Origin: Prolixibacter bellariivorans ATCC BAA-1284
GTDB taxonomy: Bacteria; Bacteroidota; Bacteroidia; Bacteroidales; Prolixibacteraceae
Reading direction: 5' to 3'
Assembly: GCF_000621705.1 (NCBI RefSeq)
Contig: NZ_JHXO01000013.1
Coordinates: 1-64,000 of the forward strand
DNA: 64,000 bases
Part shown: positions 8,929 through 27,483 of the stretch, piece by piece
How the letters are laid out: every line of letters starts with the position of its first letter
Position numbering within the stretch: position 1 is the first letter of the stretch
Position numbers and translations under genes: made by a program
Notes under the pieces: model-generated
Told to the model about the DNA's origin: nothing
Databases searched by the model: none
The model's input: the letters and a program-made list of their open reading frames with translations, nothing else

Positions 8929-10323
8929 TTACTTTACTGTGTCCAAAATCAGCACCCAGTCGTTTCCATCCCTCGCTTCACCCGGAGGATTGAATTCATG
9001 CACTCCTACATTGGGAAACTGACCAATCTTCGTAGTTTGTCCGTTCCGTGGGCTATACCAGCTTGCTATGACTTGCTTTCCTTCAATTTTGCCCATGTTC
9101 ACGGCAATGTTCCTGCCATTGTAAGTATAGATAAATGCATAATCCTTACCGCGGGTAGCAATTTGGTAATTGTATTTTTCACCTTGCGTACTGCTATTCA
9201 CCAGCGTTGTATCTGGAACACGTTCAAAATACGGACGCGATAGCATCAGTTTTTTCAGGTATTGTATTTGTCCGGCCCCCGGATCGTTAATGGCTTCGGT
9301 CCAGTATTCTTTTGCACCGTAGGCCGGTTCTTTGTCCTTGGGATTGTAAAACTGCATCACAGCATTGTCTCCATAAGTGTGTCCGCATGCTCCGGCAAAT
9401 ACAGCCCAGTAAGCATAGCGGCGGGCATCAGAGGCGTTCCAGTAAGGTTGGGTAGTGTCGTGCAGTCCCTGCGGAATTCCTTCATACGAAGGTTCTCCAT
9501 CAAGGGTGGGTTTGGTTGGTTTTAAGTTGAAATCAGTTTGAACATAGCGCCAGTTATCTTCGCCATAATCCAGTTTTGTATCGTCCTGATCGTACCTGCG
9601 ATGCCCCGACTGGAACATATTAAAGTCAAGCCATTTTTTGTTGTGAAACCACATCGAAGACTGTGTTCGCCCTCGTGGGTGAAATGTGATCAGATGGTTT
9701 GGATCATTCTGTTTTAAAGTCTCACCAATCGTATTCCACACAGCCAGGGAGTCGCTTCCTGGTATATCACCACCATTGACCCAGATCACATTGGGAACAT
9801 TTTTATACCGGTTTGCCAGAAACTCAGCGTAAGCTTTACCCTGTTTCACATCCACATATCCGGCTTTGACGTTCCCGCCCCAAATCGGTACCATCGCAAT
9901 GTAAATTCCTCGTTTACCGGCTTCATTGATTACATAATCCACATTATCCCAATAGTCATATTCATTGGGATTGTCGAAAGAGTTCCCTTTTGTTACCAGT
10001 GGGTGAGTCACATCACGATTCACCAGGGCTGAATCACCATACATGTTTTTAGCAGAAACACTGTGCAATACCATTACCTGGATAACATTGAAGCCTTTCT
10101 GTGCCCGGTTGTCCAGATAATGAAGGACTTCCTGCCTGTTTAATTTGGTGAACAACAACCAGCCGGTATCGCCCTGCCAGAAAAACGGATTTCCTTCAGA
10201 ATCCATCAAAAAGTGTCCATTCTTTGACACTTTTAACCAATCCTTCTTTTGAGGTTTGCTCTCCTTTTTTGTACAGGCAAAAAGTAAACATACTGAACAC
10301 AGGAGAATCAATAGCTTTTTCAT
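8929..10323 (-). CDS. GH140 apiosidase-like lipoprotein (DUF4038 family)
   Basis: 464 residues beginning with a lipoprotein signal (LLFAC, Cys17), so it is likely membrane-anchored in the cell envelope. The TIM barrel has the DUF4038 opening (GHFLMDSEGNPFFWQGDTGW) and a C-terminal putative collagen-binding-type beta domain. The catalytic pair expected for GH140 is visible: VIWVNGGDIPG (Asp186, acid/base) and TLDGEPSYEG (Glu277, nucleophile). Positions are close to those recalled for the B. thetaiotaomicron enzyme BT1012, which releases apiose from galacturonic acid in rhamnogalacturonan II. The gene points away from the first DeoR gene, with which it shares a 253-base divergent control region. 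Within this locus it would supply D-apiose for the kinase/isomerase/transketolase operon at 21262. DUF4038 relatives with other activities exist, so apiosidase is likely but not certain. Confidence 0.72.
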   Translation of the reverse strand: MKKLLILLCSVCLLFACTKKESKPQKKDWLKVSKNGHFLMDSEGNPFFWQGDTGWLLFTKLNRQEVLHYLDNRAQKGFNVIQVMVLHSVSAKNMYGDSALVNRDVTHPLVTKGNSFDNPNEYDYWDNVDYVINEAGKRGIYIAMVPIWGGNVKAGYVDVKQGKAYAEFLANRYKNVPNVIWVNGGDIPGSDSLAVWNTIGETLKQNDPNHLITFHPRGRTQSSMWFHNKKWLDFNMFQSGHRRYDQDDTKLDYGEDNWRYVQTDFNLKPTKPTLDGEPSYEGIPQGLHDTTQPYWNASDARRYAYWAVFAGACGHTYGDNAVMQFYNPKDKEPAYGAKEYWTEAINDPGAGQIQYLKKLMLSRPYFERVPDTTLVNSSTQGEKYNYQIATRGKDYAFIYTYNGRNIAVNMGKIEGKQVIASWYSPRNGQTTKIGQFPNVGVHEFNPPGEARDGNDWVLILDTVK

Positions 10324-10465
10324 AGGTCATTGATAATTAATAATGCGATAATGCTTAGGTGAAAGATTTCTTGCACATTTGCATCAATTTTTAAGGAGTA
10401 ATCAGTGTTTAAAGATATGTACATCTTTTTTAACCGATTCAATTTTGAATGATTTTATTTTTCGT

Positions 10466-10496
10466 TTTGCATCGAATTGGCCTTGTGTTATTTTTG
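10466..10496 (+). promoter_or_regulatory. Bacteroidetes-type promoter of the first DeoR gene
   Basis: TTTG at 10466-10469, a 19-base spacer and TATTTTTG at 10489-10496 match the primary sigma consensus of this phylum exactly. The predicted start of transcription (about 10503) coincides with the left edge of the leader that is shared with the second DeoR gene. An imperfect palindrome (AAAGAT...ATCTTT, 10411-10428) lies upstream and could be an operator. Confidence 0.7.
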
Positions 10497-10502
10497 TTTT
10501 TG

Positions 10503-11338
10503 GAAAATAAAGTAAGTCACAACAAGGGTATAGAAGTTAATTGTTTTAAAAGAATGTGTAACCGACACACAAAATAATGCTACCACAACAACGAAGGGGA
10601 AAAATCCTGGACCTAATCAGAGAAGACGGGCATGCCAAGGTCGTGCAGCTTAGTGAGATATTTAAAGTTACCGAAGTCACCATCCGACAGGATCTCGAGA
10701 AACTTGAGAAAGACGGTTTTGTAGAACGGGAGCATGGTGGGGCATACCTCAAAAATGTTGGATTGAATGTAAAGAACATTGCTTTACACAACCAGGAGCG
10801 TATTGCAGAAAAAGCGGCGATTGCCAGAAAGGCACTGGAACTGATTAACGATGGGGATACCATTATTCTGGATTCGGGTTCAACAACCACAGAAATCGCA
10901 AAGTTGATTACCGGCTTTAAGAGTTTGACGGTCATTACCGACTCCTTGAATATCGCCCTGATACTTGGAGGGATTCCTGAGATTAATCTGGTGGTAACCG
11001 GTGGTGAGTTTAAAGCACCGACTTTATCATTGACAGGGCAAAAAGCGGCAGATTCTTTCGACGGCCTGCATGTTGATAAGCTTTTCCTGGCCACTGCCGG
11101 AATCACATTGAAAGCAGGCCTCACCTATCCCAGTATCAGCGACCTTGTTGTGAAGCGTGCCATGATTGAGTCAGCCAATGAAGTTTACCTTGTTGCGGAC
11201 TCCAGTAAGATTGGGAAAAGCGCCTTTGCCAGCCTTGGTGCCCTTTCTTTAATTGATTTCCTGATTACTGATTCAAAGATCCGAGGGGCAGACAGTAAAA
11301 TGCTTCAAGACAATGAGGTTGAGATTATTGTTGCATAA
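10503..11338 (+). repeat. DeoR gene plus leader, copy 1 of a duplication
   Basis: This segment is repeated at 20086-20921. The 74-base leader and the coding sequence are both clearly homologous at DNA level; divergence rises over the last 60 bases of the gene. Sequence upstream of the leader is not shared. Confidence 0.85.
10577..11338 (+). CDS. DeoR-family transcriptional regulator, copy 1
   Basis: 253 residues, the usual DeoR length. Residues 1-57 form a winged helix-turn-helix (MLPQQRRGKILDLIREDG, EVTIRQDLEKLEKDGFVEREHGGAY). The rest is the DeoRC ligand domain of the phosphosugar-isomerase fold (DGDTIILDSGSTTTEIAKL, VITDSLNIA, VTGGEFKAPTLSLTG, DKLFLATAGI). Family members generally repress sugar catabolic genes and respond to sugar phosphates. 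It differs from the copy at 20160 at about 23 of 253 residues by eye, half of them in the last 23. It sits divergent from the GH140 gene and 1.5 kb before the SusC operon, both plausible targets. A weak hairpin (TTGGG/CCCAA, then TTTTTT) follows the gene at about 11342-11370. Confidence 0.9.
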   Translation: MLPQQRRGKILDLIREDGHAKVVQLSEIFKVTEVTIRQDLEKLEKDGFVEREHGGAYLKNVGLNVKNIALHNQERIAEKAAIARKALELINDGDTIILDSGSTTTEIAKLITGFKSLTVITDSLNIALILGGIPEINLVVTGGEFKAPTLSLTGQKAADSFDGLHVDKLFLATAGITLKAGLTYPSISDLVVKRAMIESANEVYLVADSSKIGKSAFASLGALSLIDFLITDSKIRGADSKMLQDNEVEIIVA

Positions 11339-11643
11339 TCTTTGGGAAGTGGCTGCCCAAAAGGTTTTTTCTTATTCTGGTGGGAATAACAAAAAATCTT
11401 TCGTCGAATATATTCACTATTTTTTTCATTTTCAATAGGTTCCTCTGTGATTTGTTCGTCTGGGAATGCGACTGTTTATAAACAGGGATGACAATAGAAT
11501 TGCTTCCGTAATTGTCAATTTAGTTTTCCTTTTACTTTTTAAAAGTCTGTATTCTAAAAGAATGAAAGATCAGGAAGGTTCCACCAATTTGGGCTCACTG
11601 AATCTGAAAATCGTGTTGGAGAATGTTGACATGATTGGTCCAC

Positions 11644-11696
11644 CAACCTGAGTCGGTTGAATGCCTCCAGTGGGAGGCGAAATGAGTCAATTGACT
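11644..11696. repeat. Cluster of three small hairpins
   Basis: Three inverted repeats follow each other closely: CAACC/GGTTG (11644-11659), GCCTCC/GGAGGC with a 4-base loop (11663-11678) and AGTCAA/TTGACT with no loop (11685-11696). No T run follows on either strand, so this is not a standard terminator. It lies just beyond the stop codon of the minus-strand DeoR fragment. Confidence 0.5.
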
Positions 11697-11709
11697 GATT
11701 TGTGTCAGG

Positions 11710-11844
11710 TTACTTCAAGCACAAAACAAGCTCCGGATTTATCGATAATACGGACAAAGAGGCAACTTTAGCTGAACCGTCTTCTCTCAAAAGTTCCAAT
11801 ATTTTTTCGCGCCGTTGATTTTGCAGTAAATTTTTAAGTTTCAT
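11710..11844 (-). pseudogene. N-terminal fragment of a third DeoR regulator
   Basis: Read on the minus strand from an ATG at 11844, 44 codons encode a start very like the two intact DeoR proteins: QNQRREKILELLREDGSAKVASLS corresponds to PQQRREKILDLIREDGQAKVMQLS at residues 3-26. After SVL the similarity ends abruptly (SINPELVLCLK, then stop), so the second half of the DNA-binding domain and the whole ligand domain are missing. It is oriented opposite to the intact copies. It is too short to act as a regulator and is best read as a truncated relic, showing that this locus once held another DeoR-controlled unit. Confidence 0.75.
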
Positions 11845-12372
11845 CCTCTTCCTTTTTTTTGTTGGTCGGAGTCATTTACCTGTTTTCATATGATTAAATT
11901 TTAAGTTCTCAAAGGCATCATGTGGAACTCGCACGATTACAGTTTGTTGCGTTTGAGTCAAAATGGTTGTCATGTTCGTTTCATTAGTTGATTGCTTAAC
12001 TTAAAAATTTTCGAAATAAAAATATTTTCCAGGGGTGATTGTTCATTAGGTCAGGTGATTACGAGTTTATTAGGTTAAGTGAGTTAACAGAACGCAAAAG
12101 TTAATATTCAAAAAAAAATATTTGCTTAAACGAAGCAGCAACTATTTGATGTTTTTTTATTTGTCTTACTGATATATTGACGTGTAACCTTTTTTTAAAA
12201 ATTCTACTACTGATGTCAATATGCAGATATAGAGCCAGTAAGGCTGTGTTTTGATAACCGATAATGCATGATGTTAATCAACTTGATGTGTGTTAAATCT
12301 ACATTAGATTTTGCACATCTACGAATAAAAACGAAAGCAATTAACGTTAAGGTAAAATAAAAATGATTTTTA

Positions 12373-12887: not shown

Positions 12888-15800
12888 ATGATTCCATGTC
12901 TAAGCAAAACGTCTAAAATTCCCAATCGGATAATCTTGGTCTTACTAGTTGGAATTTTTACGCTATTTAGTGTGAAGGCATTTGCACAAAGTAAAACGAT
13001 TAAAGGTACAGTGACTGATGGGACAAGTGGAGAATCTTTACCAGGAGTCACAATTGTGGTTAAAGGAACCACAACCGGTACAATAACCGATTCAAAGGGG
13101 AATTTTACATTAAGTGTACCAAGTCCTGATGTTACATTGGTGTTCTCTTATATCGGTTATGCTAAGCAGACAATTCCTTTGAAAAACAGGTCAACTATTA
13201 ACGTTAAAATGCAGAAGGACGTTAGTCAGTTAGATGAGGTGAAGGTAGTTGCCGTTGGATATGGAACAGTTAAACGGGAAAATCTAACAGGTTCTGTTGC
13301 CTCGATATCGTCAAGGGCCTTAGCTAAGGTACCCGTTACAAACGTATCAGAAGCTTTAGCAGGTAGACTTCCTGGTGTAAGGGTTCAAACCATGGATGGT
13401 GCTCCGGGCTCTGATGTCATTATTCGTGTAAGGGGTGGAGGTTCTATTTCGCAAGACAATGCTCCTTTGTATGTGGTTGATGGTTTTCCTGTTGATAATT
13501 TGAATGATATTGCTCCGGCAGACATTCAGAGTATTGATGTTTTAAAAGATGCCGCTACTACTGCTATATATGGTTCTCGCGCATCAAATGGTGTTATACT
13601 GATTACAACTAAAAAAGCAAAAGCGGGTAAAACTACTGTTAGTTTTGATAGTCATATACAGTTAAATACGTTCCCGAAAGAAAGGAAATACAAGGTTTTA
13701 TCTCCATATGACTTTGTACAAATGCAATATGAAACAGCTGCAATGAATAATACGCTTGATCAATTCACCAAAGACTTTGGTGTTTATGATGATTTGGAGT
13801 TGTATAAAAATGTTGCGCCGTTAGACAAGCAGAACGATTTATTTGGGAATAACACTTATTCTAAGTATTATAATCTTAGCGTCACGGGTGGTACTGCTGT
13901 TACTAAAATGATGTTTAGTTACACGGGAAACAGAGACGATGGTCTTATGGTAGGTTCTGGCCTAAATAGAGATGCTTTTGTTTTTAAGTTAAATCATAAG
14001 CTTTCTGAGAAGATTAAGCTTGATTTAGGTGCCAGGGTAACCAATAGAGTGGTAAATGGCGCCGGAACCTCTGGTTCATCGCAATTAAGAGTGTCTCGTA
14101 TCGTTACCGCACAACCAACAAATGGTTTAGCTGACCAGATGATTATTGACCCAAATGCTGTTGATCAATCTTATTACAACCAGTTTTTATTGGATCAGTT
14201 AAATGCAGCTGAATATGCAAAACAAGATTACAGAAAAAGATCTGATATGAGCTATGTTTTTAATGGCGCGTTGACTTATAACATATTAGATAATTTAACT
14301 GCTAAATCAGCCTTTACAATAGAAAATAGAACTTACGAAAATAAAAGGTACTATGGGCCTTTAACAGGTGTTGCTCAAGTAAACGGAGGATTGCCAGTTG
14401 GTTTAAAACAGGATCAACAATCCCGTTCCTATAAACTTACAAATACTTTGTATTATAATTTTAAAAATCTTGGCGAACACCAATTAAATGTATTGTTGGG
14501 TCAGGAAGTAAGTTCTTATAGTAGCAAAGAACAGGATGTACAGGCTGGTGGTTTTAGATACTCTATGACTCCGGATGAGCTATTTGCAAATATGCAGTTA
14601 GGCCAAACTCAATATACATCACAGGGTACGAGTGAGGCTGCCAATTCAGATATGCTTTCCTTTTTTAGTAGGCTCAATTATACGTTCAAAGACAAATATT
14701 TATTTACGGCAACCTTACGTCGTGATGCATCTAGTAAATTTGCAAAAAATAACAGAGTAGGATATTTCCCGGCTTTTTCGGCTGGTTGGAAAATTTCCAG
14801 TGAACCTTTTTTAATGGGGTCGAAAGCTGTTAATGAGTTAAAATTAAGACTTAGCTACGGAACCACTGGTAATGATCGAATTCCATCAAATGCAACCAAT
14901 TTATTGTTTGCTCCAAATTCACCTACCGATACCAGGGGACCCGGTTTTAACAATAATCAATCCGCGTCCTATTATTTTATGTATTCGCCAGGCGGTGTGT
15001 TATATAATCCTGAATTAAAATGGGAAACAACCGTTGGTAAAAATATTGGATTAGATTTTGGATTCTTTAAAAATAGAATAAACGGTAGTTTAGATGTTTA
15101 TAGTAATCAAACGAAAGATCTGTTGATTAAAGCACAAATAGCGCCTATTTCAGGGTTTAACTATCAATGGAAAAATATTGGCAATACATCAAATAAAGGT
15201 GCTGAATTGGGTTTGAATTTCAGAGTTGTAGATAAAAAGGATTTTTCAATATCAATAAATGCAAATGTTGGAGTTAACCGGTTCAAGATTGATAAACTCG
15301 ATGGTACACAATCTCTGGCTACGGCCTCAAATTGGGCCAGTACAGATTTAAAAGAAAATTTGGATTACCTGGCCGAAGTTGGAAGCGAAATTGGACTAAT
15401 TGTAGGTTATGTGAGTGATGGATTTTATACTGTCGACGATTTTTCAAGCTATGATGCAGCAACTGGTCAATATATATTAAAACCTACAGATGCTAATGGC
15501 AATCCGCTTGTAGATGATACACCGCTGTTAAAAATTAGTCAGCTTAGGCCTGGTACTATAAAAATAAAAGACTTAAATGGCGACGGCGTAATCAATGCTG
15601 ATGACCGTCGGGTAATTGGACATGCTTTGCCAAAAGCTACCGGGGGTTTTGGTTTAACCGGTAATTATAAAAGATTTGATTTTTCAGCCTTTTTTAACTG
15701 GTCTTATGGTAATGATGAGTACAATACCGGTAAAATTGCATTTAATATGTTGTATAGCAGCAATGGCGGGCGTTATCAAAATATGCTGGCTACAATGGAT

Positions 15801-16217
15801 CCTTCAAAAAGATTTACATACGTTGATACAGAAGGCAAATATGGCCCTGCCGGTGCAGTGATTACCGATTTGGCTACGTTAGGAAAAATGAATGCAGGAA
15901 AAACAATTTGGAGTGGTAATATGTCATTTGCCGGAAGAACACCGGTACTTACTGACTGGGCTGTTGAAGATGGTTCTTATATTAGGTTTAGTAACCTAAA
16001 TATTGGATATACCGTGCCAGTGGAAAATTCTTTAATTTCAAGATTGCGCATTTATTTCAGTGCAAACAACTTATATCTTTGGACTAAATATTCTGGTTAT
16101 GATCCTGATGCAAATGGGTCCAGAAGTGATGGTTATAAAGCGTTAACGCCTGGTGTAGATTACTCTACTTATCCAAAAAGCAGAAGCTTTAATTGTGGAG
16201 TAAATGTAACTTTCTAA
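12888..16217 (+). CDS. SusC-like TonB-dependent outer membrane transporter
   Basis: A 1109-residue TonB-dependent receptor that would import oligosaccharides through the outer membrane together with its SusD partner. The signal peptide ends at VKAFAQ (about residue 34). A carboxypeptidase-regulatory-like beta-sandwich follows (KGTVTDGTSGESLPGVTI, about 38-115), then the plug (VGYGTVKRENLTGSVASIS, RVRGGGSISQDNAPLYVVDGFP, SIDVLKDAATTAIYGSRASNGVILITTKK) and a 22-strand-type barrel ending in NVTF. There is no N-terminal secretin/STN domain, so it is not wired to an anti-sigma factor. The gene and the two after it are more AT-rich than the neighbouring pectinases. It is the first gene of a three-gene operon (gaps of 39 and 18 bases). 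Confidence 0.93.
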   Translation: MIPCLSKTSKIPNRIILVLLVGIFTLFSVKAFAQSKTIKGTVTDGTSGESLPGVTIVVKGTTTGTITDSKGNFTLSVPSPDVTLVFSYIGYAKQTIPLKNRSTINVKMQKDVSQLDEVKVVAVGYGTVKRENLTGSVASISSRALAKVPVTNVSEALAGRLPGVRVQTMDGAPGSDVIIRVRGGGSISQDNAPLYVVDGFPVDNLNDIAPADIQSIDVLKDAATTAIYGSRASNGVILITTKKAKAGKTTVSFDSHIQLNTFPKERKYKVLSPYDFVQMQYETAAMNNTLDQFTKDFGVYDDLELYKNVAPLDKQNDLFGNNTYSKYYNLSVTGGTAVTKMMFSYTGNRDDGLMVGSGLNRDAFVFKLNHKLSEKIKLDLGARVTNRVVNGAGTSGSSQLRVSRIVTAQPTNGLADQMIIDPNAVDQSYYNQFLLDQLNAAEYAKQDYRKRSDMSYVFNGALTYNILDNLTAKSAFTIENRTYENKRYYGPLTGVAQVNGGLPVGLKQDQQSRSYKLTNTLYYNFKNLGEHQLNVLLGQEVSSYSSKEQDVQAGGFRYSMTPDELFANMQLGQTQYTSQGTSEAANSDMLSFFSRLNYTFKDKYLFTATLRRDASSKFAKNNRVGYFPAFSAGWKISSEPFLMGSKAVNELKLRLSYGTTGNDRIPSNATNLLFAPNSPTDTRGPGFNNNQSASYYFMYSPGGVLYNPELKWETTVGKNIGLDFGFFKNRINGSLDVYSNQTKDLLIKAQIAPISGFNYQWKNIGNTSNKGAELGLNFRVVDKKDFSISINANVGVNRFKIDKLDGTQSLATASNWASTDLKENLDYLAEVGSEIGLIVGYVSDGFYTVDDFSSYDAATGQYILKPTDANGNPLVDDTPLLKISQLRPGTIKIKDLNGDGVINADDRRVIGHALPKATGGFGLTGNYKRFDFSAFFNWSYGNDEYNTGKIAFNMLYSSNGGRYQNMLATMDPSKRFTYVDTEGKYGPAGAVITDLATLGKMNAGKTIWSGNMSFAGRTPVLTDWAVEDGSYIRFSNLNIGYTVPVENSLISRLRIYFSANNLYLWTKYSGYDPDANGSRSDGYKALTPGVDYSTYPKSRSFNCGVNVTF

Positions 16218-16256: not shown

Positions 16257-18122
16257 ATGAAGCAAGTTATAAATCTTATAATCATAATAATAGCGGTAAT
16301 TTTTACTGGCTGTAAAAAGGATTTTCTAGATCCGGTTTCACTTTCAACATTTGATAAGACGCTGGTTTTTTCTAATATTGATGATGCCAGAAAAGCAACA
16401 AATAATGTTTATAGACAATTTGGTGAAGATGGATATAGAACCCGACTCTCTATAACCATGCAAGGTAACTCCGATATTAGTGTTGGAGGTGATAGAACCT
16501 CTTCGAAGGATAACTACCAAATTCTTGCATTAGATGCCGTAGCAGGTAACGGAGATTTAAAGAAAGCCTGGCAATCAGCTTATGCTGCAATAAAAGACTG
16601 TAATGTTGTAATTGACGGTATTTTGGCGAGTGATCTTTACAACTCAACAACTGATGAAGCCGCTAGTGCTGATATGCATCAATTTATAGGTGAAGCCTAT
16701 GCGATTAGAGCATTTTGGTATAGTAACCTGGTATATCAGTGGGGTGATGTTCCTTTTACAACAGCAGCGCCTAAAGCAGGTATGGATTTTAACCTTCCTA
16801 AAACGGATAGAAACCTGATTCTATCTTCTATGATCAAAGACTTAATCAAGGCAGAACCTACCATGAAATGGGCAGATGAGCTACCACACTCAGTACAACA
16901 AGTCAACAGAGAGTTTGTTATTGGTTTGATTGCCAGGCTGTCATTGCAACGTGCCGGATATTATTTAAAACCAGATATGACTAAAGCGCGTGGTGATTCT
17001 GTAACAGAGTATTATACAATTGCCAGAGATTATTGCGAAAAATTAATGACTTTAAAAGACAGGACTTTACCAAGAGATTTTGCACAAGTATTTAAAAATG
17101 AGTGTCAAAATATCTACCCAAGTAATAGTGATATGTTATTTGAAATTCCTTTCGCGCTTACGACAGGCGAAGTTGGGTATAATATTGGTATGAGACTTGA
17201 GTCAGGTGATAATAACCCCTATGGAAGAGGTGGTCACGATTTCAGCTTGACACCCAATTATTTCTATTCGTTTGATGCGAAAGATTTAAGGAGAGATGTT
17301 ACCTGTGGTATGTATGATCTGGATAAAAATTTAGTCCCTTCTGTTGTGCGTATTACTGATATTCCACAAGGGAAATGGAGTAAAGAATATTGTGACCCAT
17401 CGTTAGGTACAGCTTCTTTTAAAGGAACCGGCATCAACTGGGTTGTTATGAGATATGCAGATGTACTATTAATGTTTGCGGAAGCCGAAAATGAATTAAA
17501 CGGGCCCGACGAAGCGGCACAAAATGCTTTAAAAAGAGTACGGGAGAGAGCTTTTGATTCAGGTGATTGGGCTACCAAAGTGGATGATTATGTAAATTCA
17601 GTATCTGCTAGCAAAGAGTCTTTCTTTAATGCTATTGTTAATGAAAGAGCCTGGGAATTTGGTGGCGAATTATTACGAAAGTATGACCTAATTAGATGGG
17701 GATTATATTCGCAAAAAATGACACAGGCAGTTGATGAAATTAAAGCTTTAGCTGATGAATCTTTAACTGATAATCCATCAGCCAAACATGCATCTTATAT
17801 CTATTATCGGGTTGATAATAAGAAAATAACTATTTTTAAAGATGGTTTATACAATAATGGCGCAGTGCCTCCTGGTTATATCCCAAGTACTGGCGCAGAT
17901 TTAGATGGCAATACTTTGCCGCTCGTTAATGGGTGGGTTAGAGCCGATTGGACCAGTAGTTTGTGGGATAGTGGTACAAATGACTATAATGCTATCATAG
18001 ACAAGCGATTTGGACCTTATATTGAATCTTCACCTGTAAGGTATATTCAACCCATTCCAGCGATCGCTATCGATAATAGTGGTGGTGTTCTGGCAAACGA
18101 TGGTTACGGATTTCAAAATTAA
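16257..18122 (+). CDS. SusD/RagB-like surface glycan-binding lipoprotein
   Basis: 621 residues with a lipoprotein signal (FTGC, Cys19) followed by KKDFLD, the standard opening of SusD proteins. The TPR-rich body shows the usual N-terminal block (NVYRQFGEDGYRTR, NGDLKKAWQSAYAAIKDCN), FIGEAYAIRAFWYSNLVYQWGDVPF and the C-terminal RYADVLLMFAEAENEL and NERAWEFGGELLRKYDLIRWG blocks. It should form the lid over the SusC barrel and bind a pectic oligosaccharide. Charged positions after the Cys are KKD, not the strongly acidic surface-export pattern of some lipoproteins. It is directly downstream of susC. Confidence 0.93.
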   Translation: MKQVINLIIIIIAVIFTGCKKDFLDPVSLSTFDKTLVFSNIDDARKATNNVYRQFGEDGYRTRLSITMQGNSDISVGGDRTSSKDNYQILALDAVAGNGDLKKAWQSAYAAIKDCNVVIDGILASDLYNSTTDEAASADMHQFIGEAYAIRAFWYSNLVYQWGDVPFTTAAPKAGMDFNLPKTDRNLILSSMIKDLIKAEPTMKWADELPHSVQQVNREFVIGLIARLSLQRAGYYLKPDMTKARGDSVTEYYTIARDYCEKLMTLKDRTLPRDFAQVFKNECQNIYPSNSDMLFEIPFALTTGEVGYNIGMRLESGDNNPYGRGGHDFSLTPNYFYSFDAKDLRRDVTCGMYDLDKNLVPSVVRITDIPQGKWSKEYCDPSLGTASFKGTGINWVVMRYADVLLMFAEAENELNGPDEAAQNALKRVRERAFDSGDWATKVDDYVNSVSASKESFFNAIVNERAWEFGGELLRKYDLIRWGLYSQKMTQAVDEIKALADESLTDNPSAKHASYIYYRVDNKKITIFKDGLYNNGAVPPGYIPSTGADLDGNTLPLVNGWVRADWTSSLWDSGTNDYNAIIDKRFGPYIESSPVRYIQPIPAIAIDNSGGVLANDGYGFQN

Positions 18123-20085: not shown

Positions 20086-20921
20086 TAAAATAAAGTAAGT
20101 TACAATAGGGGTAAAGAAGTTAATTCTTTTAAAAGAGAGTGTAACCTATACACAAAATAATGCTACCACAACAACGACGGGAGAAGATACTGGATCTAAT
20201 CAGAGAAGACGGGCAAGCCAAGGTCATGCAGCTTAGTGAGATATTTAACGTCACTGAAGTCACCATTCGACAGGATCTCGAAAAACTGGAGAAAGACGGT
20301 TTTGTAGAGCGGGAGCATGGTGGGGCATACCTCAAAAATATTGGATTGAATGTAAAGAACATTGCTTTACACAAACAGGAGCGTATTGCAGAAAAAGCGG
20401 CGATTGCCAGAAAGGCACTGGAACTGATTAACGATGGGGATACCATTATTCTGGATTCTGGTTCAACAACCACCGAAATCGCAAAGTTGATTACCGGCTT
20501 TAAGAGTTTGACGGTTATTACCGACTCCCTGAACATCGCCCTGATACTCGGAGGTATTCCTGAGATTAATCTGGTGGTAACCGGTGGAGAGTTTAAAGCA
20601 CCTACGCTTTCAGTAACCGGTCAAAAAGCAGCCGATTTTTTTGTTGGACTTCATGTGGACAAGCTTTTCCTGGCCACTGCCGGAATCACATTGAAATCTG
20701 GTCTTACTTATCCCAGTATCAGCGACCTTGTTGTGAAGCGTGCCATGATTGAGTCAGCCAATGAAGTTTACCTGGTTGCGGACTCCAGTAAAGTGGGGAA
20801 AAGTGCATTTGCCAGCCTGGGAGCCCTTTCTTTAATTGATTTTTTGATAACTGACTCGAATATAAGTGAGGCAGACATTAATATTCTTAAGAGTAATGAT
20901 ATTAAGATTGTTGTTGCATGA
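20086..20921 (+). repeat. DeoR gene plus leader, copy 2 of a duplication
   Basis: Homologous to 10503-11338. The leader keeps AAAATAAAGTAAGT, GAAGTTAATT and ACACAAAATAATG in the same order, with about nine differences. The promoter present before copy 1 is not found here. Confidence 0.85.
20160..20921 (+). CDS. DeoR-family transcriptional regulator, copy 2
   Basis: 253 residues with the same winged helix and DeoRC domain as the copy at 10577. The recognition region is nearly unchanged (EVTIRQDLEKLEKDGFVEREHGGAY), so both probably read similar operators; differences in the ligand domain (ADFFVGL for ADSFDGL, SVTG for SLTG) and in the last 23 residues could alter effector response or partner choice. 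It lies upstream of the kinase/isomerase/transketolase operon, its most likely target, and 250 bases after the SusC/D terminator. I see no strong promoter of its own, because the consensus before copy 1 is not conserved. Palindromes at 21076-21114 downstream could be its binding sites. Confidence 0.9.
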   Translation: MLPQQRREKILDLIREDGQAKVMQLSEIFNVTEVTIRQDLEKLEKDGFVEREHGGAYLKNIGLNVKNIALHKQERIAEKAAIARKALELINDGDTIILDSGSTTTEIAKLITGFKSLTVITDSLNIALILGGIPEINLVVTGGEFKAPTLSVTGQKAADFFVGLHVDKLFLATAGITLKSGLTYPSISDLVVKRAMIESANEVYLVADSSKVGKSAFASLGALSLIDFLITDSNISEADINILKSNDIKIVVA

Positions 20922-21261: not shown

Positions 21262-22758
21262 ATGAATGGTTCTCAGCAATATATTCTAGCAATCGACCAA
21301 AGTACATTTGCTACTAAGGCAATCGTTTTTAACAAAAAAGGAAAAGTAGGGTACAGAACTACGGTTGGTCATGAGCAATATTACCCTCAACCCGGTTTTG
21401 TGGAACATGATCCGGTTGAGATTTTCGAAAATACAATGATGGCCATGCATCATGTGCTTGAAGAAAAAAAGATCAGTATTGATGACATTGCTGCTATTTC
21501 CCTGACCAATCAGAGAGAAACGGTGATGGTATGGGACAAAAATACAGGGAAGCCGGTCTACAACGCCATGGTCTGGCAATGTCAGCGCGGTGCACCTTAT
21601 TGTCACGAACTGAAAAGTAAGGGATATGATGAATTAATAAAAAGCAAGACTGGATTGCTGATTGATCCCTATTTTTCAGCAAGTAGTTTGCATTGGTTGA
21701 TGCAAAATGTCGAGGGAGTAAAAGAACGAGCCGTAGCTGGTGATTTACTTCTGGGAACCATGGATACCTGGTTGCTTTGGAAGCTTACAGGGGGCAAGGT
21801 TCATGCGACTGACTATTCGAATGCATGCCGCACCATGCTGTTCAATATTCACACTTTGCAGTGGGATAGTGAATTAATCGACTTATTTGATCTTGAAAGA
21901 AATATGTTCCCGGAAGTTCGTTATAGTGATGAAATTTTTGGGTACAGTGATCCTGATGTGACTTTCGGAAAAGCATTACCGATTGCGGGACTGCTTGGGG
22001 ATTCTCATGGTGCGTTGTTCGGACAAAACTGTTTCAGTCCTGGGATGGCTAAAGCAACCTATGGGACGGGTTCTTCTATTATGCTGAATATTGGAAACGA
22101 GTCGTTGGATGCGCCTGAGGGCTTGGTTACGTCTATAGGGTATGGCATGAACAATCAAATTCACTACGTATTTGAGGGAAATATTCATTGTACGGGTGAT
22201 ACAATTAATTGGTTGAAGAATGAAGTTCAGTTAATTAGTGACCCATCTGAAACAGAAGGATTGGCGAAGTCTGTCAATGATAATAATGGCGTGTATCTGG
22301 TCCCGGCATTCGTTGGACTGGGAGCGCCCTATTGGGACAATGAAGCACGTGCCTGCTTGTCGGGGATGCCCAGAAACACGACCAAAGCACATATTGTACG
22401 GGCTGCATTGGAGAGCATCGCTTACCAGGTTAATGATTTGATTCGTCTGATGGAGGAGAGAGGCGGCATTCAGTTGCAGGAGTTGCGGGTCGATGGTGGT
22501 CCAACCCATAACAATTTTCTGATGCAGTTTCAGTCTGACATGCTCAATCATGAAGTTGTTCGTTCGGATATAGAAGAGGTTTCAGCTCTTGGTGCTACCT
22601 ATATGGCCGGGCTGGCAACCGGTTTTTGGAAGGACCTTCAGGAGATTGGATCTCTTCGTGATGTTGATCAGGTTTTTAGGCCTGCCATGATGGAAAAAGA
22701 AACTGAAAAACTCTATGCTGGCTGGCAAAAAGCTGTAGAGCGGGCTAGATTATCATAA
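21262..22758 (+). CDS. FGGY carbohydrate kinase, glycerol-kinase-like (candidate apulose kinase)
   Basis: 498 residues, full FGGY length. Sequence is of glycerol-kinase type: TNQRETVMVWDKNTGKPVYN and VWQCQRG (the Arg-Glu pair that binds glycerol hydroxyls in GlpK), DPYFSASSLHWLM (the conserved Tyr), LLGDSHGALFG (the catalytic-base Asp), YGTGSS and VDGGPTHNNFLMQFQSDML. Two sites depart from GlpK: the first phosphate loop reads AIDQSTFATKAI rather than DQGTTS, and the residue after the catalytic Asp is Ser rather than Gln. Neighbours are an aldose isomerase, a split transketolase and a permease, with no glycerol-3-phosphate dehydrogenase, so a ketose is a better substrate than glycerol. With GH140 nearby, apulose, which has a glycerol-like branched end, fits. 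Kinase family certain, substrate inferred. Confidence 0.85.
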   Translation: MNGSQQYILAIDQSTFATKAIVFNKKGKVGYRTTVGHEQYYPQPGFVEHDPVEIFENTMMAMHHVLEEKKISIDDIAAISLTNQRETVMVWDKNTGKPVYNAMVWQCQRGAPYCHELKSKGYDELIKSKTGLLIDPYFSASSLHWLMQNVEGVKERAVAGDLLLGTMDTWLLWKLTGGKVHATDYSNACRTMLFNIHTLQWDSELIDLFDLERNMFPEVRYSDEIFGYSDPDVTFGKALPIAGLLGDSHGALFGQNCFSPGMAKATYGTGSSIMLNIGNESLDAPEGLVTSIGYGMNNQIHYVFEGNIHCTGDTINWLKNEVQLISDPSETEGLAKSVNDNNGVYLVPAFVGLGAPYWDNEARACLSGMPRNTTKAHIVRAALESIAYQVNDLIRLMEERGGIQLQELRVDGGPTHNNFLMQFQSDMLNHEVVRSDIEEVSALGATYMAGLATGFWKDLQEIGSLRDVDQVFRPAMMEKETEKLYAGWQKAVERARLS

Positions 22759-22795
22759 GCAAATAAATTAGGTAAATCAATAAAAAGACAATACT

Positions 22796-24211
22796 ATGAA
22801 ACCGGGAAAGCAAACATTTGGCGTAATCATCGCCACACGAAACATTTTCAATTATAAATTAGCTGTTGAAGCTCGTAAGAAGGTATTAGCCAAGCTTGAT
22901 AGTATGGGATTCGGTTATGTAATCCTGCCTGAGGATGAAACACCGACCGGTAACATTGAAGGGTATGCTGATGCCGTTAAGTGTGGTGCCTTTTTTAAGA
23001 AAAACAGTGACCTGATTGAAGGAATCATCGTGGTGTTACCTAACTTTGGAGATGAATTGGGAGTAGTCAACACAATCAAGCTATCTGGTTTGAATGTGCC
23101 TGTTTTGGTACAGGCCGTTGATGATGATAATGACAAAGTTGACGTAAAAAGCCGCCGTGACGCTTTCTGCGGAAAGCTTTCGGTGTGTAACAACTTCTAT
23201 CAGTATGGCATCAAATTCACCGACACTACTTACCACACTTATAGTTTGGACAGTGCAGAGTTTACCAAAGATCTGATAAAATTTGCAAGTATCTGCCGCG
23301 TAGTGAAAGGACTGAGCAACTTAAGGGTTGGTGCTATTGGTACTCGTCCGATTGGGTTTCAGACTATGCGCTATAGTGAAAAATTGCTGCAGAAATACGG
23401 CATTACCATTGTTCCGGTTGATATGTCGGAAATTATCGCTGCTGCAGAGAAAATTGATAAAGACGATCCTGCCGTTCTTGAAAAAGCTGAATCCATACAA
23501 TTGTATGGCGCTTGTGGAATAGCTTCGAAGGGTAAGGTAGCTCATCAGGCACGATTCGGATTGGCTGTTGAAAACTGGATTAATGAAAACAACATTGATA
23601 TATCGGCCCTGCAATGTTGGGAATCCATTGAGAAGAATTTCGGTTGTGCTGCCTGTGTTACTATGAGTATGATGGGAGAGAAGCTTATGCCATCAGCTTG
23701 CGAAGTGGACGTGGCGGGCACCATTTCTATGTATGCTTTGGCACTGGCAGCTCAAACACCTTCAGCTATTCTTGACTGGAACAACAATTTTGCAGAGGAT
23801 CGTGACAAAGTAGTAGCTACCCACTGTAGCAATTATCCGAAATCGTTCTTCCAGAGTGAGATTGAAATTGGAAGTCTTGATGTTCTGGGAACTGTTCTGG
23901 GGAGTGAAGATACTTTCGGCGCAGTGAAGGGGAAAGTTGCTGCTGGTGACATGACTTATTTCCGAATTTCCACCGATGATAACAAGGGAATCATCAAAAC
24001 TTACCTTGGAGAAGGTAAAATGACTGACGATCCTTATGGAATGGACGGTGGTATCGCTGTTTGCGAAATCCCGAACCTGCAAAATCTGATGAAGTTTATG
24101 TGCAAAAATGGTTTTGAACACCATGTCGCTATGGTTCGCGGCCATGTGAGCGAAGTATTGGAAGAAGCTATTGGCAATTATTTAGGGTGGGATCTTTATA
24201 AACACGAGTAA
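22796..24211 (+). CDS. L-fucose/L-arabinose isomerase-fold protein (candidate apiose isomerase)
   Basis: 471 residues of the FucI/AraA superfamily, metal-dependent aldose-ketose isomerases. The N-terminal Rossmann-like part has EGIIVVLPNFGDELGV; the C-terminal catalytic part shows the metal-site positions: LQCWESIE (Glu), SACEVDVAG (Asp, like CESD in FucI) and HHVAMVRGH (His). It is shorter than FucI (about 590) and belongs to the sequence class usually annotated only as fucose isomerase family. It follows the kinase by 37 bases. In an apiose pathway it would convert D-apiose to D-apulose; the characterised apiose isomerase I recall has a xylose-isomerase-type barrel, so this would be a different enzyme family for that step. 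Alternatives are D-arabinose, L-fucose or another aldose. Confidence 0.8.
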   Translation: MKPGKQTFGVIIATRNIFNYKLAVEARKKVLAKLDSMGFGYVILPEDETPTGNIEGYADAVKCGAFFKKNSDLIEGIIVVLPNFGDELGVVNTIKLSGLNVPVLVQAVDDDNDKVDVKSRRDAFCGKLSVCNNFYQYGIKFTDTTYHTYSLDSAEFTKDLIKFASICRVVKGLSNLRVGAIGTRPIGFQTMRYSEKLLQKYGITIVPVDMSEIIAAAEKIDKDDPAVLEKAESIQLYGACGIASKGKVAHQARFGLAVENWINENNIDISALQCWESIEKNFGCAACVTMSMMGEKLMPSACEVDVAGTISMYALALAAQTPSAILDWNNNFAEDRDKVVATHCSNYPKSFFQSEIEIGSLDVLGTVLGSEDTFGAVKGKVAAGDMTYFRISTDDNKGIIKTYLGEGKMTDDPYGMDGGIAVCEIPNLQNLMKFMCKNGFEHHVAMVRGHVSEVLEEAIGNYLGWDLYKHE

Positions 24212-24352: not shown

Positions 24353-24375
24353 ATATGTCCCTGTATGGGACATAT
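24353..24375 (+). promoter_or_regulatory. Perfect 9-bp hairpin between isomerase and transketolase genes
   Basis: ATATGTCCC and GGGACATAT pair around TGTAT. No T run follows. It lies in a 243-base gap inside the operon, 79 bases before the chosen transketolase start. An operator, an RNA processing site or a partial terminator are possible. Confidence 0.5.
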
Positions 24376-24454
24376 AAATTTGTAAAACAATTTGAAAATG
24401 TATCGAGGAGAAACGATCCTGAGTGGAGGAATAAGAAAAGAAAATTCATTAGCT

Positions 24455-25309
24455 ATGAGTCAATATACAGATTTGGAACTCCAGTTAAAATCGGTTAAAT
24501 ACCGAAAGGCTTTGCTTAAGTATATAAAGCTGGCAAACGCAGGGCATACTGGTGGAGATTTGTCTTGTACTGATATTCTTAATGTTCTTTACAACGATGT
24601 CTTGGGGGTTACTCCGGAAAATTTTGCAATAAGGCATCGTAATCGTTTTGTGCAGAGCAAAGGACATTCGGTAGAAGCTTTATATGTGGTGCTTGCTGAT
24701 AAGGGGTTTTTCCCGGAAAGCGATTTGGAGACTATGTGTCAATATCAGTCCAAATATGTTGGTCATCCAACTCGTAAAGTGAAAGGGATTGAATTTAATA
24801 CCGGTGCTTTGGGGCATGGATTATCGATTGCCGCAGGAATTGCATTGGCTGCAAAAATGGACAAAACAGAAAACTATGTTTTCACTTTACTGGGGGATGG
24901 TGAGCTAGCCGAAGGTTCTAATTATGAAGCTGCGATGATGGCCGCTCATTACAAACTGGATAACCTGGTGGCCATCCTTGATCATAATACCCTGCAAATC
25001 ACTGGTAGAAATCGTGAAGTTTGTAGCCCTTATCCGATTGATGAAAAGTTCAAAGCTTTTGGTTGGGAGGTTGTTTCTGTTGACGGAAATAGTATTCCTG
25101 AGCTCAGAAAAGTATTTCATGAGTTGCCAGCAGAAAAATCGAAACCTACTCTGATCATTGCCAATACAGTAAAAGGAAAAGGTGTCAGCTATATGGAAGA
25201 TGAAAAAAAATGGCATCACGGCGTTCCGTCTGATGAACAGTACAAGCAAGCGATGGATGAATTAGATGCACTAGAAAAAAAGCTTGTAAAACATTCAATT
25301 GTAAACTAA
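24455..25309 (+). CDS. Transketolase N-terminal subunit
   Basis: 284 residues from the ATG at 24455. A TTG 63 bases upstream and ATG at 24398 are in frame, but the protein from 24455 (MSQYTDLELQLKSVKYRKALLKYI) aligns naturally with family starts. It carries the ThDP pyrophosphate-binding half of transketolase: AGHTGGDLSCTDILNVLY, SKGHSVEALY, GALGHGLSIAAGIALA and the GDGELAEG...LDHN motif that binds the metal and ThDP. It forms the enzyme with the next gene product, just two bases downstream. Split transketolases are common; this one sits with a ketose kinase and isomerase, as in the apulose-4-phosphate transketolase pathway (subunits AptA/AptB as I recall), where a two-carbon-type transfer yields central-pathway sugar phosphates. 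Confidence 0.9.
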   Translation: MSQYTDLELQLKSVKYRKALLKYIKLANAGHTGGDLSCTDILNVLYNDVLGVTPENFAIRHRNRFVQSKGHSVEALYVVLADKGFFPESDLETMCQYQSKYVGHPTRKVKGIEFNTGALGHGLSIAAGIALAAKMDKTENYVFTLLGDGELAEGSNYEAAMMAAHYKLDNLVAILDHNTLQITGRNREVCSPYPIDEKFKAFGWEVVSVDGNSIPELRKVFHELPAEKSKPTLIIANTVKGKGVSYMEDEKKWHHGVPSDEQYKQAMDELDALEKKLVKHSIVN

Positions 25310-25311
25310 AC

Positions 25312-26259
25312 ATGACGATCAAAACACTGACAATGGGAAAGGCAAATCTGGAAGTGTTTGCTGCAACGCTAATGGAACTAGCGGATAAAGATTCCAATAT
25401 TTTGGCAGCAACGAGCGATTCGCGTGGATCGGGCAAATTGGGTCCTTTTGGAGAGAAATTTCCAGAGCAAATTGTTGAAGTAGGTATTGCTGAACAAAAT
25501 CTGGTAGGTGTTTCTGCAGGATTAGCTTCTGCCGGGAAAAACGTGTTTGCTGTATCGCCCGCTTGTTTTTTGAGTGCCAGGGCATTGGAGCAGGTTAAGA
25601 ATGATGTGGCCTACTCCAATCAACCCGTAACACTGGTTGGAATTAGTGCCGGCGTGAGTTACGGAGCGTTGGGCACGACCCATCATTCGACACATGATGT
25701 TGCGGTATTTCGAGCTATACATAACATACAAGTCGTGGTTCCGGCTGATAATTATGAAGCTCGTGAGGCAGTTATTGCCGCTTCGAAATCGAAGGTACCT
25801 ATTTTTCTGAAGTTCGGGAAAAAACCGATGCCTAACCTTCCGCGGTTGGAAAACACATTTGAGATAGGCAAGGCATCAACGATTTGTGAAGGTGGGGATG
25901 TTGCTTTTATTGCCTGTGGGGAAACTGTCGCCCTGGCTTATGAAGCGGCTCTGCTTTTGGAAAAAGAAGGAATACAAGCTGAAGTGATAAGTATGCATAC
26001 CGTAAGTCCGCTTGACTCGGAAAAAGTTGTCGAAACTGCAAAAAAGTGTCGTGCAATTATTACCGTAGAGGAGCATAGTGTAAACGGGGGCTTAGGTGAA
26101 GCGTGTGCATCTATCTTAATGCAAGAGAAACTTTATGTTCCTTTTAAAATCGTAGGAATTCCCGACGAAGATACAGTTACAGGTTCGCAAACTGAAATAC
26201 TGAATCACTATGGTATATCTGGAGACGGTTTATATCGTACTGCAAAGGGCCTTTTATAG
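25312..26259 (+). CDS. Transketolase C-terminal subunit
   Basis: 315 residues containing the pyrimidine-binding domain, with the catalytic Glu in VEVGIAEQNLVGVSAGLA, then THHSTHDVAVFRAIHNIQVVVPADN and the transketolase C-terminal domain (ITVEEHSVNGGLGEA, GIPDEDTVTGS). It starts two bases after the partner subunit, so translation is coupled. Together they equal a complete transketolase in domain order. Nothing is missing. The product is cytoplasmic and joins the kinase product to the pentose phosphate pool. Confidence 0.9.
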   Translation: MTIKTLTMGKANLEVFAATLMELADKDSNILAATSDSRGSGKLGPFGEKFPEQIVEVGIAEQNLVGVSAGLASAGKNVFAVSPACFLSARALEQVKNDVAYSNQPVTLVGISAGVSYGALGTTHHSTHDVAVFRAIHNIQVVVPADNYEAREAVIAASKSKVPIFLKFGKKPMPNLPRLENTFEIGKASTICEGGDVAFIACGETVALAYEAALLLEKEGIQAEVISMHTVSPLDSEKVVETAKKCRAIITVEEHSVNGGLGEACASILMQEKLYVPFKIVGIPDEDTVTGSQTEILNHYGISGDGLYRTAKGLL

Positions 26260-26457
26260 GTGAGTTTGTTTTTAATTAGCTTTTGGTCAGCAGCTTGCTT
26301 TTTGTTGTAAAGAACCGGGCAAGAGCATATTTTCCACAGAGCAATCCAGAAAATGATGTCAAAATAGGTATATCATCATAATTCGTGACTAAATCAATAG
26401 GGATTTTAACAAAAAGAATAATTTGCTAGTAACCAAATCTATGGAAAGGAAAAATCG

Positions 26458-27483
26458 ATGGTCTTAATTGGTAATTATTGGCTGGCCGTTTGCGCTTTTG
26501 TCTTCTGCATGACGATGTGGGGCTCATGGTCAAATACTCAGAAGTTAGCCGCTAAAACATGGCGTTTTGAATTGTTCTATTGGGACTTTGTATTGGGTCT
26601 TGTACTTACCGCACTTCTGTGGGGTTTTACATTTGGTACCCTTGGCGAACATGGCAGAACGTTTTGGGCAGACTTACAGCAAGCAGATACGCAAAGTATT
26701 ATGTATGCGATGTTGGGTGGCTTAGTATGGAATATCGGTAACTTGTTACTGGTTGCCGCTATTGCTGTTGCAGGTATGTCAGTTGCATTTCCGATCGGCG
26801 GTGGTATTGCCTGGTTGGGGGGCATCATCTTTAATTTTATACTGGAGGTATATGGTGGTGCTAAAATAGAAGCCATACCAACCTCTATGTTGTTTATTGG
26901 AGTGGGTATCATTTTTGTTGCCATTGTTTTAACGATGGTTGCCTACAAAAGATTGGCATCACAGCAGAAAAAGCCTTCAGCAAAAGGCATTACTTTGTCC
27001 GTTTTCGCCGGATTATTTATTGCTTTCTTTTATGGGTTAGTCGTCAAGTCAATGGATCATCAATTTGTAACCGGAGGGACCGGGAATCTTGGCCCTTACA
27101 GCGGTGTGTTCTTCTTTACACTTGGTGCTTTCCTGACCACTTTTGTCTTCAATCCATTTTTTATGAGAAAGCCGGTTGAAGGTTCTCCTGTTAAAATGAG
27201 ACAATACTTTGCAGGAAGCTTGAAAACTCATTCAATCGGAGTTTTAGGTGGTTTTCTTTGGGCATCCGGAATGGTGGTTAGTTTTATGGCAGTGGGCGCT
27301 GGTGATCCAGCAGTTTCATATGCTCTTAGCAATGCTGCTCCGGTTGTAGCTATCCTTTGGGGAGTGTTTGTTTGGAAAGAATTTAAAGGTGCACCAAGCG
27401 GGACCAATCGAATCTTACTAATTATGTTTATTTTATTTCTGATTGGGCTTGGTATTATTACCGCATCAAAAGTTATTGGTTAG
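26458..27483 (+). CDS. GRP/RhaT-like sugar permease, 10 membrane helices
   Basis: 341 residues of a drug/metabolite-transporter-fold permease resembling the glucose/ribose porter and RhaT families. About ten hydrophobic segments are visible, starting with YWLAVCAFVFCMTMWGSW and including VWNIGNLLLVAAIAVAGMSVAFPIGGGIAW, whose glycine-rich motif is typical of the group; a basic loop (KRLASQQKKPSAKG) divides the two halves. It would bring a monosaccharide through the inner membrane. It is 198 bases after the transketolase and ends at a strong terminator, closing the operon. Its substrate would be that of the pathway, apiose in the proposed model. Confidence 0.82.
   Translation: MVLIGNYWLAVCAFVFCMTMWGSWSNTQKLAAKTWRFELFYWDFVLGLVLTALLWGFTFGTLGEHGRTFWADLQQADTQSIMYAMLGGLVWNIGNLLLVAAIAVAGMSVAFPIGGGIAWLGGIIFNFILEVYGGAKIEAIPTSMLFIGVGIIFVAIVLTMVAYKRLASQQKKPSAKGITLSVFAGLFIAFFYGLVVKSMDHQFVTGGTGNLGPYSGVFFFTLGAFLTTFVFNPFFMRKPVEGSPVKMRQYFAGSLKTHSIGVLGGFLWASGMVVSFMAVGAGDPAVSYALSNAAPVVAILWGVFVWKEFKGAPSGTNRILLIMFILFLIGLGIITASKVIG

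Follow-up and report, generated by a model that had tools for sequence, protein, structure and literature searches.

A Prolixibacter bellariivorans locus predicted to release, import and catabolise D-apiose, and the protein families associated with it

Does the gene cluster around a GH140 apiosidase homologue in Prolixibacter bellariivorans ATCC BAA-1284 serve the use of D-apiose, from its release out of a polymer to its entry into central metabolism? Apiose, a furanose, is found in pectin and, in duckweed and seagrass, in apiogalacturonan. The stretch analysed here (the window) comprises bases 1-64000 of contig NZ_JHXO01000013.1 (C11), starting at the contig start; the genome is 5.15 Mb in 21 contigs. 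A previous reading of the letters alone (the sequence-only reading) had proposed that positions 8929-27483 form a locus for release, import and catabolism of D-apiose. Every gene that it named was found where it had been placed, and the reading with the best support is that of D-apiose release and catabolism, on the grounds of the isomerase family, the kinase residues and the apiosidase-type genes of distant operons encoding the same four activities. The proposed range was too short, in that a DUF5060 gene upstream and two Sde182_NH-like genes downstream also belong to the locus. With the reactions predicted from the genes, the probability that the locus serves release, import and catabolism of D-apiose is put at about 0.87.

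The direct observations made here are gene content, family membership, conserved residues and conserved linkage, and from these we infer every reaction of the following route. Judging from their families, extracellular PL1 and GH28 enzymes would open the galacturonan backbone, and the SusC/D pair would import the fragments. GH140 would free D-apiose, for which we propose the DUF5060 protein and both Sde182_NH-like proteins as its partners, and the permease would carry the sugar inward. In the cytoplasm, the FucI-family isomerase would convert D-apiose to D-apulose, the kinase would convert D-apulose to apulose 4-phosphate, and the split transketolase would transfer two carbons to glyceraldehyde 3-phosphate, yielding xylulose 5-phosphate and dihydroxyacetone phosphate; the DeoR proteins would regulate the locus.

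The known non-oxidative D-apiose pathway of the Pectobacterium/Escherichia type consists of apsI, aplK, aptA and aptB (Carter et al. 2018, as cited in PMC13001218). Excerpts of the citing paper state that apsI is absent from the Escherichia cluster and present in that of Pectobacterium, that the tested strains carrying the apiose cluster grew on D-apiose, and that apiose degradation by Bacteroides and Clostridia had already been reported (PMC13001218). Among plasmid-collection records, the best matches of the window isomerase, which carries the Fucose_iso_C domain, were isomerases of Sodalis, Klebsiella and Rahnella (46-47% identity over 470 aa). The order of genes there is solute-binding protein, DUF2291, ATPase, permease, regulator, transketolase N, transketolase C, isomerase and FGGY kinase, with an extra small hypothetical gene (Sodalis) or a nuclease gene (Klebsiella) between the permease and the regulator. 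These operons contain the gene set of the E. coli SE15 apiose cluster minus its two oxidoreductases, plus the isomerase, and their kinases are 70-72% identical to E. coli SE15 AplK. The added isomerase would be ApsI, an identity that we infer because of the gene content of the operons.

No PDB sequence matched the window isomerase up to an E-value of 0.1. Its predicted structure (AF2; mean predicted local distance difference test (pLDDT) score 88.3, from a 20-row alignment) is closest to L-arabinose isomerases (template modelling (TM) score ~0.8, 10-14% identity), followed by D-arabinose and L-fucose isomerases. Residues E303, D327, H343 and H443 are invariant across 24 aligned isomerase rows, and their spacing resembles that of the AraA metal ligands. 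At two loci (L093 and L107), an isomerase 59-60% identical to that of the window is paired with a solute-binding protein 63-64% identical to that of Rahnella; the best solved match of the L093 protein is 5ibq (431 bits), presumably a structure holding apiose. Among the matches listed from named genomes, the isomerases nearest to that of the window come from Gaoshiqia, Sunxiuqinia and Draconibacterium (88-89%).

A scan of named genomes yielded at least 576 isomerase relatives (591 candidate stretches), including records named Prevotella, Bacteroides and Phocaeicola, and the isomerase is thus widespread. The best 80 became loci, many of them cut by contig ends, in which gene presence was scored by tblastn. 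A kinase lies near the isomerase at 69 of the 80 loci, identity being as low as 21-23% at three of them; the two halves of the transketolase were found at 56 and 57, DeoR genes at 25, Sde182_NH-like genes at 15, GH28 at 10, PL1 types at nine and DUF5060 at five. At the 47 loci with 8 kb on both sides, the kinase was present at 46, the transketolase N half at 41, and a GH140, DUF5060 or Sde182 gene at 17. In a class sample of 395 genomes, the own one included, the isomerase occurs in only six; given this rarity and the closeness of kinase and transketolase halves to it at most of the 80 loci, the gene grouping exceeds chance. The TPP half of the window transketolase, which probably starts at ATG 24455 rather than TTG 24392 as judged from the translation, is 46% identical to E. 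coli SE15 AptA and 55% to its counterpart in an operon of Listeria; the second half is 36% identical to AptB and 46% to the Listeria protein. A second, full-length transketolase is encoded elsewhere in the genome, on contig C9.

The kinase was examined at the substrate-site positions 246 and 270 and at position 17 of E. coli GlpK (crystal numbering). Ser, Ser and Lys occupy these positions in the window kinase and in all of the 70 linked kinases examined (window included), four of four enterobacterial AplK-type proteins among them, versus Gln246, Phe270 and Arg17 in 8/8 GlpK-type proteins (five annotated as glycerol kinase and three from unannotated records). The 70 comprise 59 isomerase-linked kinases, four from ABC (ATP-binding cassette)-type operons of class relatives, those of Listeria and Monoglobus, four AplK-type proteins and one transketolase-linked protein of Deinococcus; the count leaves aside four short proteins out of the 62 in the kinase family and, at four loci, a second FGGY family that is distant. 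In a tree of 46 rows, for which every third isomerase-linked row plus chosen ones were kept and 33 of 79 rows left out, the eight GlpKs formed one clade (100/100) with the window kinase outside it, and the window kinase fell inside a set of 21 isomerase-linked rows (99/98). A search of the genome found no MIP channel. From the residues, the tree and this last result, the name "glycerol kinase", also borne by the Listeria and Monoglobus records, is therefore probably wrong for this kinase group.

The GH140 protein matches its best solved relatives, 3kzs and 5msy, at 455 bits and is a clear family member, with both acids noted in the sequence-only reading in place, D186 (GGDI) and E277 (DGEP), whose counterparts we take to be the catalytic acids of BT1012. 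Counted at 90 bits or more, with weaker apiosidase matches left out, GH140 occurs in 4/6 isomerase-positive versus 22/389 other genomes (Fisher p 2e-4; phylogeny ignored). The DUF5060 protein matches 4n0r at 406 bits and is 46% identical over 506 aa to the DUF5060 protein following the Monoglobus operon (isomerase, two transketolase halves, kinase); DUF5060 genes also lie within or beside the module in L039, L041, L048, L057 and L108. The operon of Listeria has the order isomerase, two transketolase halves, kinase, phosphotransferase system (PTS) and DUF4038. In Listeria monocytogenes NZ_LR134403.1 (L008 5296-13086), these genes are named as L-fucose/L-arabinose isomerase family, transketolase halves, glycerol kinase, PTS and DUF4038; by its gene content the operon looks like an apiose operon, and its kinase has Ser/Ser/Lys. 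We take lmo1031-lmo1035 to be probably that operon. According to an excerpt of one report, lmo1031-lmo1035 bear generic names (PMC2996996).

Two Sde182_NH-like genes follow the permease gene. The predicted structure of the first protein (mean pLDDT 83.4) matches Sde_0182 of Saccharophagus degradans (2yhg; TM 0.77/0.90, 38% identity), and D42, D48, D49 and D276 are invariant across 23 Sde182_NH-like rows; by the nucleoside hydrolase motif, we take them to be the furanose-site carboxylates, probably equivalent to the calcium site of those enzymes. The family, PF07632, has been without an assigned function since the 2yhg structure. Sde182_NH-like genes occur in 6/6 isomerase-positive versus 21/389 other genomes (p 6e-8) and track GH140 (15/26 GH140-positive versus 12/369 other genomes, p 2e-13), also in isomerase-negative genomes only (11/22 versus 10/367, p 3e-10). 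At the 80 loci, 24 such genes were counted at 15 loci versus 0.7 predicted from their density in the six positive genomes, a low estimate in which at most six matches per genome were scored; several lie inside the operon or at its end (L041, L075, L036 and L039). The own genome has four apiosidase-type matches (one below the Pfam cut-off), on C11, C2 and C15, each at most 23 kb from an Sde182_NH-like gene; because these regions stand at the starts of C2 and C11, and C15 measures just 7 kb, the three may be pieces of one larger locus. A 925-residue frame in one relative (G001; L030, joined-region 36722-39499) is an apparent lyase-Sde182 fusion, 65% identical to the PL1 lyase at 128-1543 and 60% to the second Sde182_NH-like protein.

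It is an even question whether these proteins are instead general pectin- or carbohydrate-binding proteins without specificity for apiose. Sde_0182 is named cellulose-binding, and in an excerpt of one report it is inactive on nucleosides and thought to be a possible furanose-interacting module (PMC8910321). GH28, present in 84/395 class genomes, is found in 21 of the 27 genomes with Sde182_NH-like genes, which occur in 21/84 GH28-positive versus 6/311 other genomes. However, the link to GH140 and the isomerase persists within the 84 GH28-positive genomes: Sde182_NH-like genes are present in 12/21 with GH140 versus 9/63 without (p 2.4e-4) and in 6/6 isomerase-positive versus 15/78 others (p 1.3e-4). 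Moreover, 12 of the 15 module loci with Sde182_NH-like genes are without a PL1 hit, and no GH28 hit occurs among them. Among the papers returned by literature searches, none mentioned both apiose and nucleoside hydrolase, and none DUF1593. The furanose form of apiose makes a role as apiofuranosidase or in apiose binding the natural hypothesis, and it is proposed that the Sde182_NH-like and DUF5060 proteins act on apiofuranosides or help apiose release. A more specific version, which we hold tentatively and at somewhat less than even odds, is that PF07632 proteins are apiofuranosidases (nucleoside-hydrolase-fold O-glycosidases with furanose-binding aspartates) and that DUF5060/DUF5605 is a second new apiosidase-type family, both complementing GH140 on apiosyl-apiose or on differently linked apiose.

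The sequence-only reading had also invoked four pectate lyases as a sign of the polymer; these are real, but all lie outside 8929-27483. Two of them (128-1543 and 2163-4274) were compared with the PDB, and the other two were called by similarity to the first. PfPL1 (9buj), to which the first is related, is reported as active on apiogalacturonan in an excerpt of its description (PMC11229556). The combination of PL1, GH28 (window and C2) and GH88 (C2) fits an apiose-bearing galacturonan backbone. That the polymer is rhamnogalacturonan II, or that apiosyl flavonoids are the source, is a serious alternative to apiogalacturonan, though one we doubt: 5msy, which we take to be BT1012 of the rhamnogalacturonan II system, is among the closest solved GH140 relatives, and GH78-like, GH43 and GH28 genes are present, against which stand the kinship of the PL1 lyases with an apiogalacturonan-active enzyme and the presence of GH28, GH88, DUF5060 and Sde182 genes where contig C2 begins. 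GH140 aside, no Pfam name among the scanned proteins pointed to rhamnogalacturonan II, and no genome-wide search for such enzymes was made. The own genome holds a second pectin/apiose-type region (L115/L116, C2:1-36000, and L117 on C15), with DUF5060, Sde182, PL1, GH28 and GH88 genes, those of a two-component system, and paralogues of the window DeoR proteins (69-90% identity). The PL1 gene on C15 is 96% identical to that at 128-1543, and repeats may therefore have broken the assembly.

The permease scores 32 bits against the 320-bit RhaT cut-off and 90 bits against Ureide_permease. A homologue is present at 17 of the 80 isomerase loci, where its match begins 13-105 bases after the isomerase match in 15, the other two lying 688 bases away and on the opposite strand. 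The 12 loci that have an ABC ATPase include none of these 17 (Fisher p 0.044), although a weak solute-binding-protein match (23-27%) occurs at five of the 17. From this pattern the permease seems to replace the ABC importer used elsewhere. The gene itself is present, as the sequence-only reading had it; its proposed role in apiose import is supported indirectly, by the adjacency to the isomerase and the missing ATPase. In four relatives (G110, G321, G065 and G001), the module is opened by a DeoR gene, followed by the isomerase, transketolase halves, ABC importer genes and kinase; their ATPase and permease are 39-44% identical to the enterobacterial ones and their binding protein 33-43%, and a DUF2291-like gene, recognised by Pfam in L033, was called in these four by place and size only. 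The two DeoR regulators of the window are identical at 230/253 residues and share a partly duplicated upstream segment. The regions preceding DeoR and module genes were compared for common words and inverted repeats, which gave the operator candidate TTTCGTTT, found in 11/39 upstreams versus at most seven for any word in one shuffle, which was dropped for its inconsistent positions.

Several observations weigh against the assignment to D-apiose. The window isomerase is tied to ApsI through the operon, not through the ApsI sequence. The window kinase scores 629 bits against a cut-off of 590 for the glycerol kinase family TIGR01311 and also passes that of NF000756, its best PDB matches are glycerol kinases, and overall identity places it nearest to them (49% to E. 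coli GlpK). Clustering of the kinase with the enzyme of another proven sugar, named beforehand as a result that would speak against apiose, was thus seen by overall identity and not by residues or tree. In the comparison with apulose kinase that had been called for, the substrate-site residues agree with AplK, but identity to E. coli SE15 AplK is only 38%, and no supported node joins the clade of the window kinase to AplK, the AplK and ABC-type kinases being separate and the backbone of the tree unresolved. In G110, GH140 lies at a distance from the module; G065 and G366, the latter a fragmented genome, carry it on contigs without the module, G321 lacks it and G001 has just a weak match. It occurs in 6/14 isomerase-negative genomes of the same order and within reach at only 5/80 loci, and any of GH140, DUF5060 or Sde182 at 23/80. 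The association tests among GH140, Sde182_NH-like genes, isomerase and GH28 ignore phylogeny. The Listeria DUF4038 protein is 21% identical to the window GH140 and the Listeria isomerase 26% to that of the window, and the Listeria and Monoglobus operons are without a proven sugar. The solute-binding protein of G110 is nearer to the ribose-binding protein 2fn8 (357 bits) than to 5ibq (209), so that the solute-binding protein is weakened as proof for the Bacteroidota ABC versions.

If these points led to the pathway of another sugar with a FucI-type isomerase (D-arabinose, L-fucose or sulfoquinovose), GH140 would be a coincidental neighbour, as the few loci with GH140 beside the module would allow; the Fucose_iso_C domain, the AraA/FucI fold and a weak match to the sulfoquinovose isomerase SftI agree with such a pathway. 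We consider it improbable, however, as the SftI match reaches 111 bits against an equivalog cut-off of 700, and the gene set agrees with the enterobacterial apiose-type operons and is accompanied by DUF4038/DUF5060 genes in Bacillota. To our knowledge, the three pathways account less well for a kinase with a split transketolase. An ordinary glycerol kinase, in a cluster for glycerol, dihydroxyacetone or another ketose, is highly improbable: the kinase is the only gene of the genome above the GlpK cut-off (next best 122 bits), in keeping with the family scores and identity given above, but the pocket residues, the GlpK clade and the lack of a MIP match rule against it, and a GlpK of Parabacteroides instead adjoins glycerol-3-phosphate dehydrogenase and MIP genes.

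Table 1. Features of the D-apiose locus and its surroundings in the window
Feature	Position	Strand	Basis
PL1-type pectate lyase, related to PfPL1 (9buj)	128..1543	+	phmmer 193.7 bits to 9buj
PL1-like lyase, longer, divergent	2163..4274	+	phmmer 112 bits to 9buj; 32-38% to other three lyases
DUF5060 / apiosidase-like / DUF5605 secreted glycosidase candidate	4330..5886	+	Pfam
GH43 with GH43_C2 domain	5921..7582	+	Pfam 247.5 bits
Possible SGNH-type esterase	7772..8641	+	GDST motif; sub-threshold DUF4350 match only
GH140 apiosidase homologue, lipoprotein-like N-terminus	8929..10323	-	Pfam Apiosidase 390 bits plus Collagen_bind_2
DeoR-family regulator 1, divergent from GH140	10577..11338	+	Pfam/NCBIfam
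SusC-like TonB-dependent receptor	12888..16217	+	Pfam
SusD-like glycan-binding lipoprotein	16257..18122	+	Pfam
Surface protein with DUF4957/DUF5123 domains	18141..19826	+	Pfam
DeoR-family regulator 2, paralogue of regulator 1	20160..20921	+	Shared upstream words
Apulose-kinase candidate, FGGY, glycerol-kinase-like	21262..22758	+	Pfam/NCBIfam, Ser/Ser/Lys residues, tree
D-apiose isomerase candidate, AraA/FucI fold	22796..24211	+	Enterobacterial homology, predicted structure, conserved residues
Split transketolase, thiamine pyrophosphate (TPP) half	24392..25309	+	Pfam; GDG...N motif
Split transketolase, second half	25312..26259	+	Pfam
RhaT/ureide-permease-like inner-membrane permease, candidate apiose importer	26458..27483	+	Pfam
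Sde182_NH-like secreted protein 1, nucleoside-hydrolase fold, candidate apiofuranoside-acting	27607..29061	+	Pfam 382 bits
Sde182_NH-like secreted protein 2	29206..30645	+	Pfam 241 bits
PL1-like pectate lyase	30965..32308	+	46% to 128-1543 lyase
PL1-like pectate lyase	32380..33870	+	70% to 128-1543 lyase
GH78-like alpha-L-rhamnosidase-type protein	33677..36049	+	Pfam
GH28 polygalacturonase family	36113..37819	+	Pfam
Stand-alone DHBP synthase (RibB-type)	38191-38835		
GDSL-type esterase	39199..39846	+	Pfam

Among the flanking genes (Table 1), the GH78-like gene probably has an internal true start, as its overlap and internal ATGs indicate, and the esterase candidate at 7772-8641 may be of the SGNH type. 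A stand-alone 3,4-dihydroxy-2-butanone 4-phosphate (DHBP) synthase gene (RibB-type) is present at 12/80 isomerase loci (L033, L034, L037, L038, L040, L042, L051, L054, L059, L060, L063 and L076), adjoining DeoR in 11. In 11/11 searchable genomes of these 12, exactly two DHBP copies were found, a long RibBA-type and a stand-alone one; one copy was found in 7/8 comparison genomes and four matches in the eighth. DHBP synthase chemistry passes through a branched intermediate, so that one could imagine the enzyme acting on branched phosphates derived from apiose. The enzyme was nevertheless rejected as a part of the pathway: the window copy is 38-44% identical to copies at the other loci, and since those are nearer to the RibBA of the genome (57-64%), the window copy is not their orthologue. 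Farther downstream, a phage-type integrase gene (-, 43592-44860) adjoins a tRNA-Pro gene (45154-45229), and together with open reading frames at 40212-43398 without a Pfam match these resemble an integrated element.

The locus would lead from the polymer into central metabolism by a compact route in Bacteroidota. At its core are catabolic genes that form a Bacteroidota version of the non-oxidative apiose pathway already known; what is new is the residue rule for the kinase, the exchange of transporters and the link of apiose with the Sde182_NH-like and DUF5060 families. The residue rule tells kinases of the apulose type apart from glycerol kinases, two groups confused in public annotation, and the link offers a concrete and cheap functional test for PF07632 and DUF5060 proteins.

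Compared with the enterobacterial operons of the non-oxidative pathway, the locus shares the isomerase family, the substrate-site residues of the kinase, the split transketolase and the linkage of the genes. It differs in having DeoR proteins where those operons have a sugar-binding regulator and a permease where they have an ABC importer, in its divergent kinase, and in the addition of SusC/D, GH140, DUF5060 and Sde182_NH-like genes. The operons of Listeria and Monoglobus encode the same four activities, with the same kinase residues and a DUF4038 or DUF5060 gene nearby, whereas their isomerase is distant (26%), their transporter genes are of the PTS or ABC type and their regulators belong to the LacI family. 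The GH140 protein matches the apiosidases 3kzs/5msy over nearly its full length, with both acids, but differs in host and gene neighbourhood. The Sde182_NH-like proteins are like Sde_0182 in sequence, fold, C-terminal domain and conserved aspartates; they differ from it in that those of the window sit in an apiose locus and their relatives near apiose modules.

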